Of a stretch of DNA of 64,000 nt, positions 55,540-63,947 are shown in pieces. This DNA comes from Tepidisphaeraceae bacterium. Its GTDB lineage: Bacteria > Planctomycetota > Phycisphaerae > Tepidisphaerales > Tepidisphaeraceae. The stretch covers positions 248,001 to 312,000 of the forward strand of contig DASYHQ010000013.1 in the NCBI GenBank assembly GCA_035998445.1. Direction: 5' to 3'. The notes below the pieces were generated by a model. The model saw only the letters and a list, made by a program, of their open reading frames with translations. It was not told the DNA's origin and did no database searches. The stretch's first letter is position 1. Each line of letters starts with the position of its first letter. The translations under genes were made by a program, and so were the position numbers.

Positions 55540-56109
55540 ATGCCCAGCCACCGCTTCGTTCCGCTTGCCGCCGTCGCAGTCGTCACGTCGCTGTCCGCCG
55601 CGTCGGCGGTCGCCGCGCCCATCACCTACTTCGAGCAGGTCAGCGGCGATTTGCCCGGCAACGACGTCTCCACCGCCACCTTCACGCTCGACGTCGGCCT
55701 GAACACCGTCAACGGCACCTTCGGCGAAACCGACGGCGGCGACTTCGACGCCTTCGGCTTCATCGTCCCGGCCGGCCTGGAAGTCCTCAGCGGCAAGCTG
55801 CTGCTGACCGACGCCACCGGCGACATCCTCGACACCGCCTGGTCGATCGACGCCGGCATCGGCGACTTCACGCCCCAGCTCGAGGTCGTCCTCGCCACCT
55901 CGCCCGGCTTCACCCCCTTCGCCGCCGCCACGCTGCCCGCCGGTTCGTACACGATGTCCCACCGCTTCTACGACGGCAACGGCACCGCCAACTACACCTT
56001 CATCTTCGACGTCCACCAACCCACCACCGCCGTCCCCGAACCCGCCTCGCTCGGCCTGCTCTCCCTCGCCGGCCTCGCCGTGTTGCGTCGCACGCGTTCG
56101 ATCGCGTAA
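55540..56109 (+). CDS. PEP-CTERM protein, paralogue 1
   Basis: The 189-residue secreted protein has a signal peptide (FVPLAAVAVVTSLSAASAVAA). The mature part begins PITYFEQVSGDLPGND and contains LDVGLNTVNGTFGETDGGDFDAFGFIVPAGLEVLSG, then a PEP-CTERM ending VPEPASLGLLSLAGLAVLRR. It is paralogous to 56161-56703 and 57820-58398. The ribosome site is GGGAGA 9 nt before ATG. Confidence 0.88.
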   Translation: MPSHRFVPLAAVAVVTSLSAASAVAAPITYFEQVSGDLPGNDVSTATFTLDVGLNTVNGTFGETDGGDFDAFGFIVPAGLEVLSGKLLLTDATGDILDTAWSIDAGIGDFTPQLEVVLATSPGFTPFAAATLPAGSYTMSHRFYDGNGTANYTFIFDVHQPTTAVPEPASLGLLSLAGLAVLRRTRSIA

Positions 56110-56160
56110 GGTTTGTCGGTCGTCCGCCGCTCGTCGTTGTCCGATCTGAAAGGCCCACAC

Positions 56161-56703
56161 ATGATCCGCTCGTTCGTCCTCGCCACGTTGCTGTCCGCTG
56201 CGCCGGTCCTGGCCGCGCCCATCTCGTACGTCGAATCGATCGACGGCGACTTGCCCGACTCGTTCTTGTATGCCACCACCTTCACGCTCGACGTCGGCCT
56301 GAACACCGTCGCCGGCCAGTTCGGCTCCGACACGTCCGACTACGACGCCTTCGGCATCATCGTCCCCGCCGGCCTCGAAGTGATCAGCGGCAACGTGCTG
56401 CTCGCCGATACCAGTAACAACCTCACCAGCACCACCTGGCTGCTCTACGACGGCCCCGCCGACGACGCCTCGATCCGCGAGTTCATCGAAGCGCCCTCGC
56501 CCGGCTCCACCAACTTCGCCACCACCACCCTGTCCGCCGGCCGCTACACGATGTACCAACAGTTTCTCACCGGCTACGGCAGCGCCAACTTCACCTTCAG
56601 CTTCGACGCCCGCCAAACCGCCGCCGTCCCCGAACCCACCTCCCTCGCCTTGCTCTCCCTGGCGGGCGTCGCGTTGATGGCCCGCAGGCGCGCCGGGGTT
56701 TAG
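56161..56703 (+). CDS. PEP-CTERM protein, paralogue 2
   Basis: The 180-residue secreted protein has a short signal (FVLATLLSAAPVLAAP) and the same mature motif set: YVESIDGDLPDS, LDVGLNTVAGQFGSDTSDYDAFGIIVPAGLEVISG. The ending is VPEPTSLALLSLAGVALMARRR. ATG 56161 follows GAAAGGCCCACAC. Identity with paralogue 1 is strong in the central segment and weak elsewhere. Confidence 0.87.
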   Translation: MIRSFVLATLLSAAPVLAAPISYVESIDGDLPDSFLYATTFTLDVGLNTVAGQFGSDTSDYDAFGIIVPAGLEVISGNVLLADTSNNLTSTTWLLYDGPADDASIREFIEAPSPGSTNFATTTLSAGRYTMYQQFLTGYGSANFTFSFDARQTAAVPEPTSLALLSLAGVALMARRRAGV

Positions 56704-56799
56704 CCGCGAATTGAATTGACATCGAACTACTGCGAATTAAACTTGCCCTTGCAAGCGTGGTCGTTCATCTCCCTGGCGTTGAAACGGAAGGCTAACTCG

Positions 56800-57666
56800 A
56801 TGACTCGTACGTTCCTTTGTGCCGTGGCCAGTGCGTCGATCCTTCTGTCAGCCGAGGCCACCAGCGCCGCGATGATCGTCGCCGACTTCAACGACCTCAC
56901 CATCGGCACCCTGAACAACAAGGGTGGCGGCACGGGGCTCAGCGGGAACTGGACCGGCAGCGCCGGCGGCTCGGTCGTCGCCAACGACCTGACCTCCACG
57001 CTCTACAACCGCCCGCAGGCCGGCAACGCCCGGCGGGCCCGCAGCGAGAACAGCTCCGGCCTTCGTCAGAACTACCGCACGATCGCCGTCTCACCCACCG
57101 GCACGGTCTGGTTCTCGTTCCTCGCCCGGGCCGAGGCGTCCGCTTCCCAGGCCGGCCTGTCGATCAACGCGCCCACCCCGACGCCCTTCAACGACCCCGG
57201 CACGTTCTACGCCTACCTGTCCGGCAGCACGCTGCAGTACCAGTTCGGCGCCGGCACCGCCGGTAGCGCCGCCAACGTGGCCACGGTCAACTCGACCGCC
57301 CTGGTGGTCGGCCGCATCACGATCGCCGGCAGTGGCGGGGCCGATGCGGTCACCCTTTGGGTCAACCCCGACCTGATCGCCAACCCGAACATCGACGCCT
57401 ACACGCCCGTCTACAACAACGCGTCCGTCAACGCCCTGGACACCTTCTCGCACATCGGCGTCGTCGCCTCCCGCTTCGACGGCGGCAACACCGGCGCCGG
57501 CAACGTCGACAACATCCGCATCAGCGACGGCAACGGCAACGCCGCCACCGCCTACACCGACGTCACCGGCGTCACCGCCGTCCCCGAGCCCACGTCCCTC
57601 GCCCTGCTCTCGCTCGGCGGCGTGGCCTTGCTCGGGCGTCGCAGATCGATCGCACGCAAGGCATAG
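56800..57666 (+). CDS. PEP-CTERM protein, unrelated to its neighbours
   Basis: The 288-residue secreted protein has a signal MTRTFLCAVASASILLSAEATSA and a beta-rich body (MIVADFNDLTIGTLNNKGGGTGLSGNWTG, TVWFSFLARAEAS, DAVTLWVNPDLIANPN, ASVNALDTFSHIGVVASRF). It resembles LamG/jelly-roll-type lectin-like modules but no family is certain. It ends VPEPTSLALLSLGGVALLGRRR. ATG 56800 follows GGAAGG. Confidence 0.85.
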   Translation: MTRTFLCAVASASILLSAEATSAAMIVADFNDLTIGTLNNKGGGTGLSGNWTGSAGGSVVANDLTSTLYNRPQAGNARRARSENSSGLRQNYRTIAVSPTGTVWFSFLARAEASASQAGLSINAPTPTPFNDPGTFYAYLSGSTLQYQFGAGTAGSAANVATVNSTALVVGRITIAGSGGADAVTLWVNPDLIANPNIDAYTPVYNNASVNALDTFSHIGVVASRFDGGNTGAGNVDNIRISDGNGNAATAYTDVTGVTAVPEPTSLALLSLGGVALLGRRRSIARKA

Positions 57667-57819
57667 AATCGTCCCATCTTGCCGCACTTATCCGGCGTCA
57701 TCGCGGCGCTCCATCCATTCGCCGCTGCCTGCTTGATTCGGTTCGCCGCGCCGTTACGCTTCATGGGCAGTTCCCGCAAGTTGAGCAGGTCCGCTTACGC
57801 CGTTCTGGGGATCATTATC

Positions 57820-58398
57820 ATGAAGCCGTTGTTCGCCGCCTCCGTCCTGGGGTCGCTCTGCGTCCCAGCCACCGTCGCCGTCACCTCGCTGTCCGCCGCG
57901 TCGGCCGTCGCCGCGCCGGTCCATTACTTCGAGCAGGTCAGCGGCGATCTGCCGCAGGACTACGCCGGCAACACCGACGCGCCGGTCCTCACGCTCGACG
58001 TCGGCCTCAACACGATCAACGGCACCTTCGGCACGACGCCGTCCTACGACTTCGACTCCTTCGTGTTCATCGTCCCCGCCGGCCTCACGGTGCTCAGCGG
58101 GCAACTGGTCGTCACCGACGCCACGGGCGACATCGAGGACGGCAGCTGGATGGTGCTCGACGGCATCGGCGTCTTTCAGGAGTTCGTCATCGCCACCTCG
58201 CCCGGCGTCACCGACTTCGCCGCCAACACGCTGCCCGCCGACTCCTACCTGATGAGCGGCCTCGACTTCGGCGGCGACGGCACCGCCAACTACACCTTCT
58301 CCCTCACCGTCGCCGCCGTCCCCGAACCCGCGTCGCTCGGCCTCTTCGCCCTCGCCGGCGCGGCGCTCTTGCGCCGCAGGGCGACGCGCCGGGCGTAA
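57820..58398 (+). CDS. PEP-CTERM protein, paralogue 3
   Basis: The 192-residue secreted protein starts MKPLFAASVLGSLCVPATVAVTSLSAASAVAA. The mature part opens PVHYFEQVSGDLPQDY and repeats the paralogue motif LDVGLNTINGTFGTTPSYDFDSFVFIVPAGLTVLSG. It ends VPEPASLGLFALAGAALLRRR. ATG 57820 follows GGGGATC. It is closest to paralogue 1, suggesting duplication across the unrelated gene between. Confidence 0.88.
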   Translation: MKPLFAASVLGSLCVPATVAVTSLSAASAVAAPVHYFEQVSGDLPQDYAGNTDAPVLTLDVGLNTINGTFGTTPSYDFDSFVFIVPAGLTVLSGQLVVTDATGDIEDGSWMVLDGIGVFQEFVIATSPGVTDFAANTLPADSYLMSGLDFGGDGTANYTFSLTVAAVPEPASLGLFALAGAALLRRRATRRA

Positions 58399-59598: not shown

Positions 59599-59976
59599 CG
59601 TACGAGTTCGTGCCGCGCCCGTACGAGTACGCAGCGCGCCCGTACGAGTTCGTGCCGCGCCCGTACGAGTACGCAGCGCACCCGTACGAGTTCGTGACGC
59701 GCCCGTACGAGTTCGCAGCGCGCCCGTACGAGTTCGCAGCGCGCCCGTACGGGTTCGCGCCGCGCCCGTACGGGTTCGCGGCGCGCCCGTACGGGTTCGC
59801 GCCGCGCCCGTACGAGTTCGCGGCGCGCCCGTACGGGTTCGCGGCGCGCCCGTACGAGTTCGCGGCGCGCCCGTACGAGTTCGCGGCGCGCCCGTACGAG
59901 TTCGCAGCGCGCCCGTACGGGTTCGCAGCGCGCCCGTACGAGTTCGCGGCGCGCCGGTACGAGTGCGCGCCGCGCC
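59599..59976 (+). repeat. Tandem array of 18 units of 21 bp
   Basis: Eighteen consecutive 21-bp units such as CGTACGAGTTCGCGGCGCGC(C) run from 59599 to 59976, with a degenerate nineteenth after. Units vary at few positions (GAG/GGG, TTC/TAC, GCGGCG/GTGCCG/GCGCCG). As the unit is a multiple of three, the plus frame stays open as (RPYEFAA)n and the minus strand also reads through. It is a minisatellite, not a CRISPR. Confidence 0.95.
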
Positions 59977-60158
59977 CGTACGGCTTCCCGGCTCTAGAGC
60001 GTGTTATGCACTTTCCAGCTCAGAGACTGGCTTGGGTGCCACGGTTTGGTACGCCAAGCCGTGCCGGTACGCGCAGACACGGCTTGGAGTACCAAACCGT
60101 GGCACCCAGCGTCGTCACGCCTGCGTTACTGGCCCCCAAAGTGCATAACACGCTCTAG
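59610..60158 (+). other. Open frame over the heptapeptide repeat
   Basis: The frame translates the array as about 17 copies of R-P-Y-(E/G)-(F/Y)-(A/V)-(A/P), then continues into element D2. The C-terminal part has no family likeness and the frame ends inside the palindrome. I saw no signal peptide or membrane helix. It may be a real repeat protein or merely a consequence of the 21-bp period. Confidence 0.3.
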
Positions 60159-60216: not shown

Positions 60217-60720
60217 CTAGTAGCCGCGCGGTTCAGTCGCCGTTGCGGTGGCGACACCGCCGAGGCCTTTCAGGTCTCGCACGCTCGAGACTTGAAATCC
60301 CGCGTCCTTCGCAATGTCACGAACGGTCCGGTCCAGACCGACCGGGCACGGTCCAACATAGATCAGCGCGCGCGGTCGAGATGGCAGCCCAATCGTAATC
60401 CCGCCAAGGCGGGCCGTCTGATCCGCTGAAGCCAACGCATCGGCGATCCGCGACGCGAGAAGTGGATTCCGTACCACGCGCGAGAGATCGAGCGGCATCG
60501 GCGCATCATCGGGCGCCGTGTGTAACATTACCGATGGCGCAGAGGGTTGCTGTCGCGCTACACGGGTCGGATCGAGCGGCCTTACCGTCCGTGGCATTTG
60601 GGTTTGCGGGGGATTGATCGGCGGCGCGTGCGTATCACGTTTCGAAAGCCGATATGCCACGTACACGGCGCCGAACGTTGCGCCAGCACCGATGATCGCA
60701 GCAATGATGGTGTCCGACAC
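60217..60720 (-). CDS. Small membrane-anchored protein of unknown function
   Basis: The 167-residue protein uses a GTG start (60720) with a GGAGGAGGAAT ribosome site. The N-terminal helix TIIAAIIGAGATFGAVYVAYRLS is followed by a Pro-rich linker and a C-terminal soluble region (LLASRIADALASADQTARLGGITIGLPSRPRALIYVGPCPVG). I recognise no family. The longer frame to 60978 reads through repeat D3 and is not supported. Confidence 0.6.
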   Translation of the reverse strand: MSDTIIAAIIGAGATFGAVYVAYRLSKRDTHAPPINPPQTQMPRTVRPLDPTRVARQQPSAPSVMLHTAPDDAPMPLDLSRVVRNPLLASRIADALASADQTARLGGITIGLPSRPRALIYVGPCPVGLDRTVRDIAKDAGFQVSSVRDLKGLGGVATATATEPRGY

Positions 60721-60746: not shown

Positions 60747-60779
60747 CTATGGCTTGATGCAGTCCTCCGACACCAGCCG
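60747..60779 (-). pseudogene. C-terminal remnant of the MmeI-like methyltransferase gene
   Basis: On the minus strand CTGGTGTCGGAGGACTGCAT reads LVSEDC and continues to IKP then TAG. It matches the ending LVSDDCIRP of the methyltransferase fragment at 63563-63947. The upstream coding part is replaced by element D3 at 60776. It is a very short remnant. Confidence 0.6.
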
Positions 60780-60892
60780 GGTGCCACGGTTTGGTACTCC
60801 AAGCCGTGTCTGCGCGTACCGGCACGGCTTGGAGTACCAAACCGTGGCACCCAAGCCAGTTTCTGAGCTGGAAAGTGCATAACACGCCGGGT
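60776..60892. mobile_element. MITE-like palindromic element, family D copy 3 (inverted)
   Basis: This is the inverse orientation of D2: the part from GGTGCCACGGTTTGGTACTC to AGTGCATAACAC matches D2 with about one mismatch over some 115 bp. One terminal repeat is missing at the 60776 side, where it abuts the LVSEDCIKP remnant. Sequence similarity of this level suggests recent movement or conversion. Confidence 0.8.
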
Positions 60893-61210
60893 GTTCTCAG
60901 ACAGGGGCCGCGAAAATGGGAGCCGCGAAAAGGGGACATCCAGAATATCCCGCCGAGCGACTCGCCCGTCGAACACACCTGACCCGGGATATTCTGGATG
61001 TCCCCTTTTCGCGGCTCGTGCCATTCCGCCGATCACTTCCGCCTGGCTCGTCTACTGACTCTGTGGACAAACGATACGACGTCAGTGGGGATTTACGCGG
61101 GTTGTCGAAAACTTTGCGGATAATCCGCTTCCGGTACTCATCTGGGTACGATCGCCTCAGGGGGAGTACAGTACTCCCCTGAAGAAACCAATCACCTCCA
61201 GGAGAATCTC
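60893..61210. other. Gene-free stretch between D3 and the lipoprotein gene
   Basis: About 320 bp holding the long inverted repeat 60921-61016 and then unremarkable sequence; a short GTACTCC/GGGAGTAC pair near 61156-61180 precedes the lipoprotein ribosome site. Confidence 0.5.
60921..61016. repeat. Long perfect inverted repeat (32-bp arms)
   Basis: AGCCGCGAAAAGGGGACATC...(60921-60952) and its perfect complement ...GATGTCCCCTTTTCGCGGCT (60985-61016) are separated by 32 nt. Both arms are 32 bp with no mismatch. It is distinct from families A-F in this window. Confidence 0.92.
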
Positions 61211-61801
61211 ATGTCGCGCTTCGCATGTATTGCATTAAGCATCTGTCTCGTTCTCACCGGCTGCACGTTCTCGGTAAAGGACACGGCTGGGATTCGGCGG
61301 TGCCTCGAAGATGCGGGACGCGCCGAGTCGTATGCGGTGGCGATCAAGGAGCGGTACCAGCCTAACGATCCCCAGTACAACCAATTCTCCAGCACGTACC
61401 TCGTCGCCTCGACCACAACGAATGGTTACCTTGAGGGTCTTAGCGGCGACATCAGGATCAGGGGCGTCGTCGACGTGCCGGTCGAAGATTACGAGGCGTC
61501 CCGGGCCTTCACCGAACTGACACAGCTGGACGCTCAGGGTCGGGAACTGATGGGCGCGGGGGTCGACCCCGCGTCTGTGGTCACGACGGGTGCCATCGTC
61601 AAGTTTGCCGTTGAAGTGGTCAATGAGATTCAGGCCTGGCACGACCGAAGGAAAGCGAAGGCGATCGCGGGAGTGATCGAGACCCTGCAGCAATCCAAGA
61701 TGCGCACGTTCGCTAGCCTTAACCAGCAGGCGCTCGCCACGCGATACGCATCGCCAGCCCCCGGTACGCCGGCGACCGCGCCGGCCTCAGCTCAGCCTTA
61801 A
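61211..61801 (+). CDS. Putative lipoprotein of unknown function
   Basis: The 196-residue protein has a lipobox (IALSICLVLTGC, Cys18) and a helical body: RRCLEDAGRAESYAVAIKERYQPNDPQYNQFSSTYLVASTTTNGYL, then VKFAVEVVNEIQAWHDRRKAKAIAGVIETLQQSKM. It ends in an Ala/Pro/Thr-rich tail. The ribosome site is CAGGAGA. The family is not recognised. Confidence 0.65.
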   Translation: MSRFACIALSICLVLTGCTFSVKDTAGIRRCLEDAGRAESYAVAIKERYQPNDPQYNQFSSTYLVASTTTNGYLEGLSGDIRIRGVVDVPVEDYEASRAFTELTQLDAQGRELMGAGVDPASVVTTGAIVKFAVEVVNEIQAWHDRRKAKAIAGVIETLQQSKMRTFASLNQQALATRYASPAPGTPATAPASAQP

Positions 61802-61810
61802 CCCGACACG

Positions 61811-61845
61811 TCCACCGGCTGGGCCGGGCCGGCCCAGCCGGTGGA
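61811..61845. terminator. Hairpin between convergent genes
   Basis: TCCACCGGCTGGGCC and GGCCCAGCCGGTGGA form a perfect 15-bp stem around GGGCC, between the lipoprotein stop and the metallopeptidase-like stop. No T-tract is seen. Confidence 0.65.
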
Positions 61846-62883
61846 TCAACGGAACAGGCGAAGGCCATCGAGCGTAACGCCCGCTGCAGCGGCGTTCATC
61901 TCGTAACCGAACGCGGCCGGGTCACGTGCGACGGTCTCCGCCAGCTTCGCAACGCGTAAGGACAGATCAGCAGCACGCCGGCGATCGTCCTCAGTAACGA
62001 ATGCGGATTCCGCCAGGTGCTGCAGCTCGAATTCCGAGAAAGCGAGCGCCCGCTGATGATGCAGCGGGTGTGTCGGATTTGCCTCCGTGTCGGTGTTGCT
62101 GCCTTGCATCACCTGCATCCACGAGAGGAAGAGCATTGGGGCGCCGATGGGCGTCTCCCGCGCCTTCAGCAGAATCTCATGCGCGGTGGCGTCGGCTTGC
62201 GTTTCAACTTCGGGCGTTGATTCCACGGTGCCATGCAGCACGTGCGCCACCTCGTGGGCGATGATGAATACGAGCATGCTGTCTGCCGTCGACGCCGCCG
62301 CTCTCGCGATGGGCACCGGCCCGCCGACGGCTTCGAGCTTCTGACGAGCGCTCTCGGCGATGACGGGCTCTGACCCGTATCCACCGGGATATGAGATCAG
62401 ACCCGAGGCGAGCATGGGATTGACGATCACCTCGCCGTTCTCGCGCGATCGCATGTAAAACAGATAGTCGTTCAGCCACTTCACGTCGGCGATGGTCGTC
62501 GCGAACTCCGCGGCCAGCGCCACCTTGCCGATCGAACGGATCGTCTCCGCAGAGATGACGATCGCCTGCTTGCCTTGACTGTCGGGCGGCCTTGTGACTG
62601 CGAAGAACTTCTGCGTTCCGAACGGGTTCAATGAAATAGACAACGTCCGCAGCTTTTCGCGCTCCGCATCCGTCAAGGCGCACCGGATCAGTTCAAGCCG
62701 GTCCTGCAGTATCTGTTGCATTCCTTCGGCGTCATTCTCGCGATGCCGCTGTTCCCACGCGACCAACGCCTCGTCCCCTCGTGGCGCATCGACGCGTCCG
62801 TCAAACTCCCGTGGCGATGGCTTACAGCACGATGCGACCGCGACAAAGATCGAGACTGCACAAGCGAACTCATTGCATCGCAT
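61846..62883 (-). CDS. HExxH metallopeptidase-like lipoprotein
   Basis: This is a 345-residue putative lipoprotein with lipobox VAVASCCK near residue 18. The zinc motif is HEVAHVLHG (about residue 208), with a likely Glu ligand in EVETQADATAHEIL about 20 residues later, as in M48-type peptidases. The rest is helical. ATG 62883 is chosen because AAAGGGG lies before it. The function is inferred from the motif only. Confidence 0.72.
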   Translation of the reverse strand: MRCNEFACAVSIFVAVASCCKPSPREFDGRVDAPRGDEALVAWEQRHRENDAEGMQQILQDRLELIRCALTDAEREKLRTLSISLNPFGTQKFFAVTRPPDSQGKQAIVISAETIRSIGKVALAAEFATTIADVKWLNDYLFYMRSRENGEVIVNPMLASGLISYPGGYGSEPVIAESARQKLEAVGGPVPIARAAASTADSMLVFIIAHEVAHVLHGTVESTPEVETQADATAHEILLKARETPIGAPMLFLSWMQVMQGSNTDTEANPTHPLHHQRALAFSEFELQHLAESAFVTEDDRRRAADLSLRVAKLAETVARDPAAFGYEMNAAAAGVTLDGLRLFR

Positions 62884-62994
62884 GATCCGTCCCCTTTCAT
62901 ATGGTGCGGCGCGTCGCGGGTAACGCATTACCCGTTGCGGTCGCCGACCGAATCGGTTCCATCACAATTCTTGGCACGCCGTCACCAGTCGCTT

Positions 62995-63528
62995 TCACCC
63001 GTCCCGAGAGACGGGGAACTCGAACCCGTAGTACGAACCGTCCACGCGTTCCTGCTCCCAGACTTCCCTGATCGCGGCGGATCTTCCGTAGGAGGCCATG
63101 CCCGCCCGCCACGCGTTCCAGACGCGTTCGTCGATGTAGCCGGCGTCGAAGAACAGGAATTCCTCGGCGCACAGGTTGAAATAGTCGACGACCTTGGCTC
63201 GGTCCCTGCCCGTCAACGTATCGCGCTTTTGGCTGATCGCGCGCAGTTCCTCGTTCATCCTGTCGTATCGGTCGTTGAACTTCTCGAACAGCTCGATGAA
63301 ATGAACGGTCTCTGTCGCGTGCTGGTTGAAGAAGAACGCAGCGACCGCGCCGACGACTGCCAGCCAGCCAAATACCCATTCCGGCGTGCGCAGGGCCGGG
63401 ATCGCCGTGCAGACGACGCCGACCAAGATCGCTATCGCGATGACGCGCCACACGAGACGTGGCCGAACGCGGAGTTTGTTCTTCCGGTCTTCGCGCGGCT
63501 CGAGATAGCGTGTGATCGATTCCGACAT
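62995..63528 (-). CDS. DUF4760-like membrane protein
   Basis: The 177-residue protein has two N-terminal membrane helices (RLVWRVIAIAILVGVVCTAIPAL and VFGWLAVVGAVAAFFFNQ) and a cytosolic helical part: HFIELFEKFNDRYDRMNEEL, VVDYFNLCAEEFLFFDAGYIDERVWNAWRAGM. This resembles DUF4760-type proteins. The ribosome site is AAGGAGA. The function is unknown. Confidence 0.65.
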   Translation of the reverse strand: MSESITRYLEPREDRKNKLRVRPRLVWRVIAIAILVGVVCTAIPALRTPEWVFGWLAVVGAVAAFFFNQHATETVHFIELFEKFNDRYDRMNEELRAISQKRDTLTGRDRAKVVDYFNLCAEEFLFFDAGYIDERVWNAWRAGMASYGRSAAIREVWEQERVDGSYYGFEFPVSRDG

Positions 63529-63562
63529 CGCAGGTCTCCTTTTTCAGGCGGACGGTAGTTGT

Positions 63563-63947
63563 TCATGGCCTAATGCAGTCGTCGGACACCAGCTTGGCCG
63601 GGTCGCCGTACGTTGGGGGCACGTCGGGGGCGGTGACGGGTTGGCCGGCCTGTTCGCGGGCGGCGACGGTGGCGGTAGACCTTGGTGAGGTCGACGCCGC
63701 GCTTCTTCATCTCGATGAGGACGACGGGCTTCCAGACGTAGTCGGCGAACGCGGTGCCGCCGCCGTCCTCCTTGGCCTTCCTTATGCGCATCTCGGGCGA
63801 GCCGCCGACGTCGAGGGAGCCCTGCTGGCCGAAGGCCTGGAAGAGGCGGTCGAGGAAGATCTGGGCCTGGCCCCGTTCGTCGCCGGTGATGTGCTTGGCG
63901 GACCAGTCGACGAAGTCCTGTAGCTTGGCGGTGCGCGATTCGTGCAT
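63563..63947 (-). pseudogene. Internally deleted MmeI-like DNA methyltransferase
   Basis: The first about 100 residues match the N-terminus of MmeI/Eco57I-type restriction-modification methyltransferases: KLQDFVDWSAKHITGDERGQAQIFLDRLFQAF, then TAFADYVWKPVVLIEMKKRGVDLTKVYR. After KVYR the frame shifts: the +1 frame gives TVAAREQAGQPVTAPDVPPTYGDPAKLVSDDCIRP and TGA, a plausible C-terminus. The methyltransferase centre, several hundred residues, is missing, so the gene is a remnant. Confidence 0.8.

Follow-up and report, generated by a model that had tools for sequence, protein, structure and literature searches.

The stretch of DNA considered here, a window of 64,000 nucleotides from a Tepidisphaeraceae bacterium, harbours close to one end two fragments of MmeI-type genes, which encode single-polypeptide restriction-modification (RM) enzymes. 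Three accessory genes and two palindromic repeats lie between them, and the features are arranged as follows.

60217..60720, minus strand: 167-aa ORF beyond the left tail, with a GTG start behind AGGAGGAGG and one membrane helix predicted by eye; no family match
60747..60779, minus strand: final 10 codons, with the stop, of a second, diverged MmeI-type gene (DNA and coding patterns, short tail profile)
60776..60887, unstranded: 112-bp palindromic repeat adjoining the left tail, with dozens of genomic copies (genome search, DNA fold)
60920..61020, unstranded: palindromic element with 33-bp arms, DNA fold z -12.3, with related copies elsewhere in the genome
61211..61801, plus strand: 196-aa predicted lipoprotein with an LTGC lipobox identified by eye; no family match
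61846..62883, minus strand: 345-aa lipoprotein-like protein with HEVAH (HExxH) and a lipobox-like start; matches to M48 (0.046) and M78 (0.033) both below cut-off
62995..63528, minus strand: 177-aa membrane protein starting just past the right tail; no family match above cut-off
63563..63670, minus strand: C-terminal tail of the same MmeI-type gene as the next feature, out of frame and with its own stop at 63563 (full-gene profile positions 934-968, E 2e-6; tail profile 4.7e-21)
63669..63947, minus strand: first ~90 residues encoded by an MmeI-type RM gene, including the nuclease motif AD-x9-EMK (Pfam MmeI_N 2.7e-7; profile positions 2-90, E 2e-45)

The right fragment (63563-63947, minus strand) consists of the first ~90 and the last ~35 residues of the enzyme, fused. 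In relatives the intact gene encodes ~970 aa, with a C-terminal end of the form VTAPGxPxxY...LVT(E/D)DCIRP. An HMM search, the check put forward in the first-pass annotation of this DNA, matches residues 6-91 of the fragment to MmeI_N (E 2.7e-7) over the gathering score, and its N-terminal part is 76% identical over 92 residues to the intact gene in the relative L041. A full-gene profile of 970 positions (window coordinate = L012 coordinate + 58999) matches at 63669-63935 (positions 2-90) and 63566-63670 (positions 934-968); the two parts are out of frame at the junction, where ~843 profile positions are gone. The reading frame stays open for 125 aa, 32 out-of-frame residues following the N-terminal ~92. 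As profile positions 91-933, comprising the methyltransferase and target recognition domains, are absent, the fragment is a remnant rather than a member of the type IIL RM genes. In the part of PMC4833311 available, MmeI, itself a type IIL RM enzyme, is divided into nuclease (1-155), spacer (156-300), methyltransferase (301-620), recognition (621-825) and C-terminal bundle (826-919) regions, the N-terminal PD-(D/E)XK domain carrying D70...E80-M-K82; by these limits, the window copy retains a portion of the nuclease together with the extreme C-terminus. Set against that description, the remnant is alike in AD-x9-EMK, the D-x9-ExK motif of the MmeI_N domain being found in the alignment, and both it and its intact relatives match MmeI_N, but without spacer, methyltransferase and recognition domains it cannot be an active member. 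The earlier proposal that this copy kept both ends and lost its catalytic centre is therefore correct for the ends and for the missing methyltransferase and recognition regions, but not for the nuclease motif, which is still present. The window's genome has no further MmeI_N match.

The left fragment encodes RLVSEDCIKP followed by a stop, resembling the family tails that end in LVT(E/D)DCIRP, and stops at the start of the 112-bp palindromic repeat. Taken by itself, the short tail profile matches it weakly (E 0.31 in the window). A tail DNA pattern has two matches in the window against 0.04 expected, and the coding pattern (E/D)DCI(R/K)P has exactly two matches in the 5.84-Mb genome, one at each window fragment, with none for a reversed-pattern control. 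Compared by eye, the two tails agree at 23/27 bases; four codons differ, each change being synonymous or conservative. The profile, the Pfam match and the twofold occurrence of the tail pattern thus bear out the first-pass view of two remnants of one gene type, and of a decayed RM island, both fragments being ends of MmeI-type RM genes.

The genes between the fragments had been described as lipoprotein, metallopeptidase and DUF4760-like. Lipoprotein genes are indeed found and an HExxH motif is visible, but peptidase matches fall below cut-off and Pfam gives no DUF4760 match. Judged from its sequence, the 345-aa HEVAH protein is a probable metallopeptidase; a Lit-like peptidase was considered and rejected, given E values of 0.039 to the Lit model and 2.5e-4 to the U41 model and a lipobox suggestive of export. 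Since homologues of the 177-aa membrane protein occur in 2/247 other class genomes, and of the 345-aa protein in 0/247, these can be regarded as sporadic accessory genes. Searches of plasmids and of solved structures gave no match to the window cassette proteins, and no match identifies defence genes in this cassette. A homologue of the membrane protein, 48% identical, lies at 4292-7608 of L224, among genes that by eye resemble DUF2971, a DUF4065-like protein and an HD hydrolase.

The loss of the core of MmeI-type genes recurs among relatives, most of the genomes compared being metagenome-assembled drafts. In a survey of the class with the N-terminus, 25/397 genomes had a match: 18 frames are at least 791 aa long (one of them containing a stop and another broken by a frameshift) and seven are shorter than 400 aa. 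All seven short frames have a C-terminal match downstream, which for G004 covers profile positions 878-901 only, at a contig end. A second scan, from which the best 80 of 234 relatives were kept, gave 60 frames of at least 850 aa and 20 short ones, five of which (L089, L117, L125, L136 and L166) have lost the core and retain both ends by profile. L121 is a sixth, recognised through a BLASTP match of its end to that of L136 (2e-29); that end has no match to the profile and an E value of only 0.2 to an intact gene. Because L089 and L125 duplicate the contigs of G019 and G004, each pair was counted once, and the union by profile comprises ten loci: the window, L089, L125, L136, L117, L166, L075, L076, L077 and L078, the last being the weakest (36 N-terminal positions, E 1e-8), with L121 added by BLASTP. 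In the ten, the N-terminal parts extend to profile positions 37-242, and the tails start from 833-937. Among the 11, BLASTN alignments cover only the two ends and the surviving pieces of the gene (66-94% over 31-497 bases).

Several loci fall outside this count: those with small lesions (L108, L111, L123, L130, L044 and L079), diverged genes of cyanobacterial type that have lesions or lie near contig ends (L143, L146, L150 and L162), loci at or near contig ends (L116, L126, L139 and L137), L142, where the gene end is lost and no tail is present within 8.8 kb, and L102, where an older decayed copy lies upstream of an intact gene. L144 was rejected as a core swap and forms a contrast case, in which an IS3-type insertion has both gene parts around it. 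A phylum survey with the N-terminus, matching 5/392 genomes, was too thin for use.

More than 1 kb separates the ends in 8/11 loci, and in six of these eight the intervening DNA includes another anti-phage system, as listed below. PDC and HEC are names from the PADLOC library, which covers known and candidate systems; in the part of the PADLOC paper available (PMC8565338), Hma is described and HEC-03 is not.

L089: restriction endonuclease and methyltransferase
L125: XamI restriction endonuclease and Eco57I-type methyltransferase
L136: fused methyltransferase-restriction endonuclease
L121: methyltransferase, HTH regulator and BsuBI/PstI restriction endonuclease
L117: DUF6978 and DUF1828/1829, corresponding to PADLOC PDC-M24A/B
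L077: AAA/DUF3696 ATPase and partner, corresponding to PADLOC HEC-03B/A

The cassettes can be tightly bounded: at L117 the tail resumes at the stop of the last gene, and at L077 the N-terminal frame and the first gene overlap. L075 and L078 have ordinary genes between their ends, with no defence match among the genes examined (Pfam only), and nothing is left between the ends of the window's right fragment, L166 (0.28 kb) or L076. The recombination hotspot suggested in the first-pass annotation accordingly finds support at the level of the gene family, with the core gone in ten loci and L121. The flanking genes look ordinary where sampled (a planctomycete cytochrome, solute-binding protein, PAP2, ferric reductase, SpoIIE, NERD and others). 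Nine of ten flanking proteins at six loci, one of the ten being a window neighbour, have no PADLOC match at 1e-5, and the tenth matches through a generic response-receiver domain; in this sample, the clustering of defence genes around the site that marks a defence island was absent.

A second MmeI subfamily was matched in 33/397 class genomes, five of these being cross-matches to the first, and both ends without the core were found in three of the remaining 28 or so. Ten of the 28 have short frames, all of which were examined, and seven are lesions, contig ends or unresolved. The ends of L216 are fused in the same manner as in the window. In L217, from a two-contig genome, a methyltransferase (2.9e-93) and a 227-aa ORF without a match lie between the ends, and in L214 a methyltransferase (8e-97) and an opposite-strand ORF without a match, the tail here having an E value of 9e-5 in a six-sequence search. 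In L210, an ORF resembling a methyltransferase comes after the N-terminal fragment and runs to the end of the contig.

Supernumerary gene ends are also found. L089 and L105 each have several tails, and L095, L100 and L115 have one extra tail downstream of the gene, that of L115 being spread over two frames; in L110 and L113/L045 there are additional N-termini upstream. The extra tail of L095 agrees at 58/72 positions with a gene from another genome and at 32/71 with the gene next to it, which ranks 54th of 55, and so derives from a different allele. By contrast, the extra tails of L105 (67/81) and L100 match their own gene best, and may therefore be local duplicates; L115 is intermediate. The origin of the tails thus appears to be mixed. 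At 12973-15617 of L105, the intact MmeI-type gene is followed by three more tails of the same type over 2.6 kb, and at 3252-4407 of L045, which shares its contig with L113, a stub of 26 residues from an MmeI N-terminus precedes a 348-aa ORF, RhuM-like by eye, and an intact MmeI-type gene.

Across these genomes, the ends of MmeI-type genes persist while their cores vanish and other defence systems take over, and at L095 the tail of a former allele remains. We consider it likely that the window locus is the scar left by serial turnover of RM and other defence genes, in which occupants were replaced or deleted from the inside while the ends of the gene persisted. A single-gene MmeI-type RM enzyme would formerly have occupied 63.6-63.9 kb and lost its spacer, methyltransferase and recognition region, the ends becoming joined. 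An older or neighbouring allele would survive only as its final 10 codons, 2.8 kb off and beyond three accessory genes, while the same gene type was repeatedly emptied or refilled in relatives. The last step at the window would be an internal deletion, perhaps via a short CGCCA microhomology, as guessed from the junction. This order of events is a reconstruction, a close relative being absent from the genomes compared: the neighbouring NERD gene is present in 2/60 other relatives, and an orthologous empty or intact site for comparison is hence lacking. The intact genes of relatives have other neighbours in the loci examined, and the fragment ends are homologous to them, whereas a single intact methyltransferase gene in the same setting throughout, or ends without homology, would have spoken against the first-pass reading. 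The window cassette lies between two tails and not inside an MmeI-type gene, and the window represents a quiet, emptied case of a wider pattern, itself the more interesting part.

Such turnover might be favoured because incoming defence DNA would be kept when the resident RM gene is destroyed and the restriction barrier is gone. Loss of a one-polypeptide RM enzyme should moreover be tolerated, nuclease and methylase going together. The conserved ends may survive because they are not selected against, or through a part in recombination, and the route could be insertion followed by deletion or exchange through the ends. A bolder reading, which we put forward tentatively and regard as rather doubtful, is that the ends act as portable homology arms, through which bounded defence cassettes are swapped by ordinary homologous recombination without a dedicated mobile element; if this were true, a restriction gene would be a landing site for its own replacement.

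The window could instead reflect plain decay, a single large internal deletion with a second copy reduced to a stub and unrelated passenger genes between. The loci with nothing left between their ends (the window, L166 and L076, and likewise L216 of the second subfamily) agree with this, and so, when only large deletions are considered, do the breakpoints: their positions in the ten loci have a probability of 2e-13 if free and uniform, but of 3e-4, only moderately unlikely, among deletions of at least 591 positions, both figures being descriptive as the limits are data-derived. As it leaves the complete and differing defence systems between the ends of six loci unexplained, we judge decay alone unlikely. 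Much less probable still is site-specific integration at the 3' end of the gene with duplication of the tail, in the manner of islands at tRNA ends. Extra tails do lie downstream in a single orientation in the window, L089, L095, L100, L105 and L115, but their starts are spread over profile positions 833-943 rather than one crossover point, which argues against a fixed recombination site, the ORFs inspected by eye included no recognisable integrase, and neither the loss of cores nor the foreign allele at L095 would be accounted for.

Two further explanations have very little to commend them. The N-terminal 92 residues and their out-of-frame extension could form a retained functional small protein, with its nuclease motif intact and its frame open to 125 aa, but only ~92 of the ~155 nuclease residues are left by the domain limits in the available part of PMC4833311, the 32 residues that follow are out of frame, and the tail is in another frame. 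An assembly artefact might be feared in draft genomes, most of those compared being metagenome-assembled, but the 366-kb contig that encloses the window belongs to a genome 95.5% complete and 0.4% contaminated, and the pattern repeats in independent assemblies, including L217 with its two contigs. The preferred reading therefore remains that of serial turnover.

RM insertion with long target duplication was reportedly described by Nobusato et al. in 2000, direct repeats of gene sequence flanking the inserted genes. In place of near-identical direct repeats, the repeats here have diverged (23/27 bases between the window tails, 32/71 for the L095 tail), and at L095 one comes from another allele. 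Replacement of RM loci is already known: in the Helicobacter pylori pabI locus, as given in the accessible portion of PMC4615327, a large internal deletion is filled by a foreign segment, hrgC. That case concerns one site, one species and a two-gene RM system, whereas here there are many sites, a one-gene RM system and whole defence systems as the filling. Similarly, the enterobacterial immigration control region has differing defence genes at the same place across genomes, but its anchors, in the text of PMC12707154 at hand, are conserved housekeeping genes rather than the ends of the displaced defence gene. The available part of PMC12421847 describes replacement across a species, not at one locus. 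The fast turnover of RM systems despite their rarity on mobile elements was left open, and small integration hotspots suggested, in the portion of Oliveira et al. 2014 (PMC4176335) available. Intact MmeI-type enzymes are likewise uncommon on plasmids (10/72,556 records at E 1e-60), with hardly any in phages (2/50,697 records, partial and 24% identical). The literature searched, which covered few subscription journals, holds no description of recurrent replacement inside MmeI-type genes, and so far as we could find this is a new form of a known process. The gene ends provide a readable record of the earlier system at a site, and a simple search for a short N-terminus followed by a tail could reveal defence cassettes in genomes without a defence island.

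The surroundings of the left fragment are rich in repeats. Palindromic elements at 60024-60155, 60776-60887 and 60920-61020 have dozens of genomic copies, representing most of 92 matches, and the first two have a nested palindrome GGTGCCACGGTTTGGTAC and a TGTTATGCACTTT end in common. Next to them, 59599-59982 is a 21-bp tandem array of 18.3 copies with 89% matches, where an ORF reads RPYEFAARPYGFA repeats, and at 55540-58398 similar secreted proteins with PEP-CTERM-like C-terminal motifs are encoded in a row, apparently as tandem paralogues when judged by eye.
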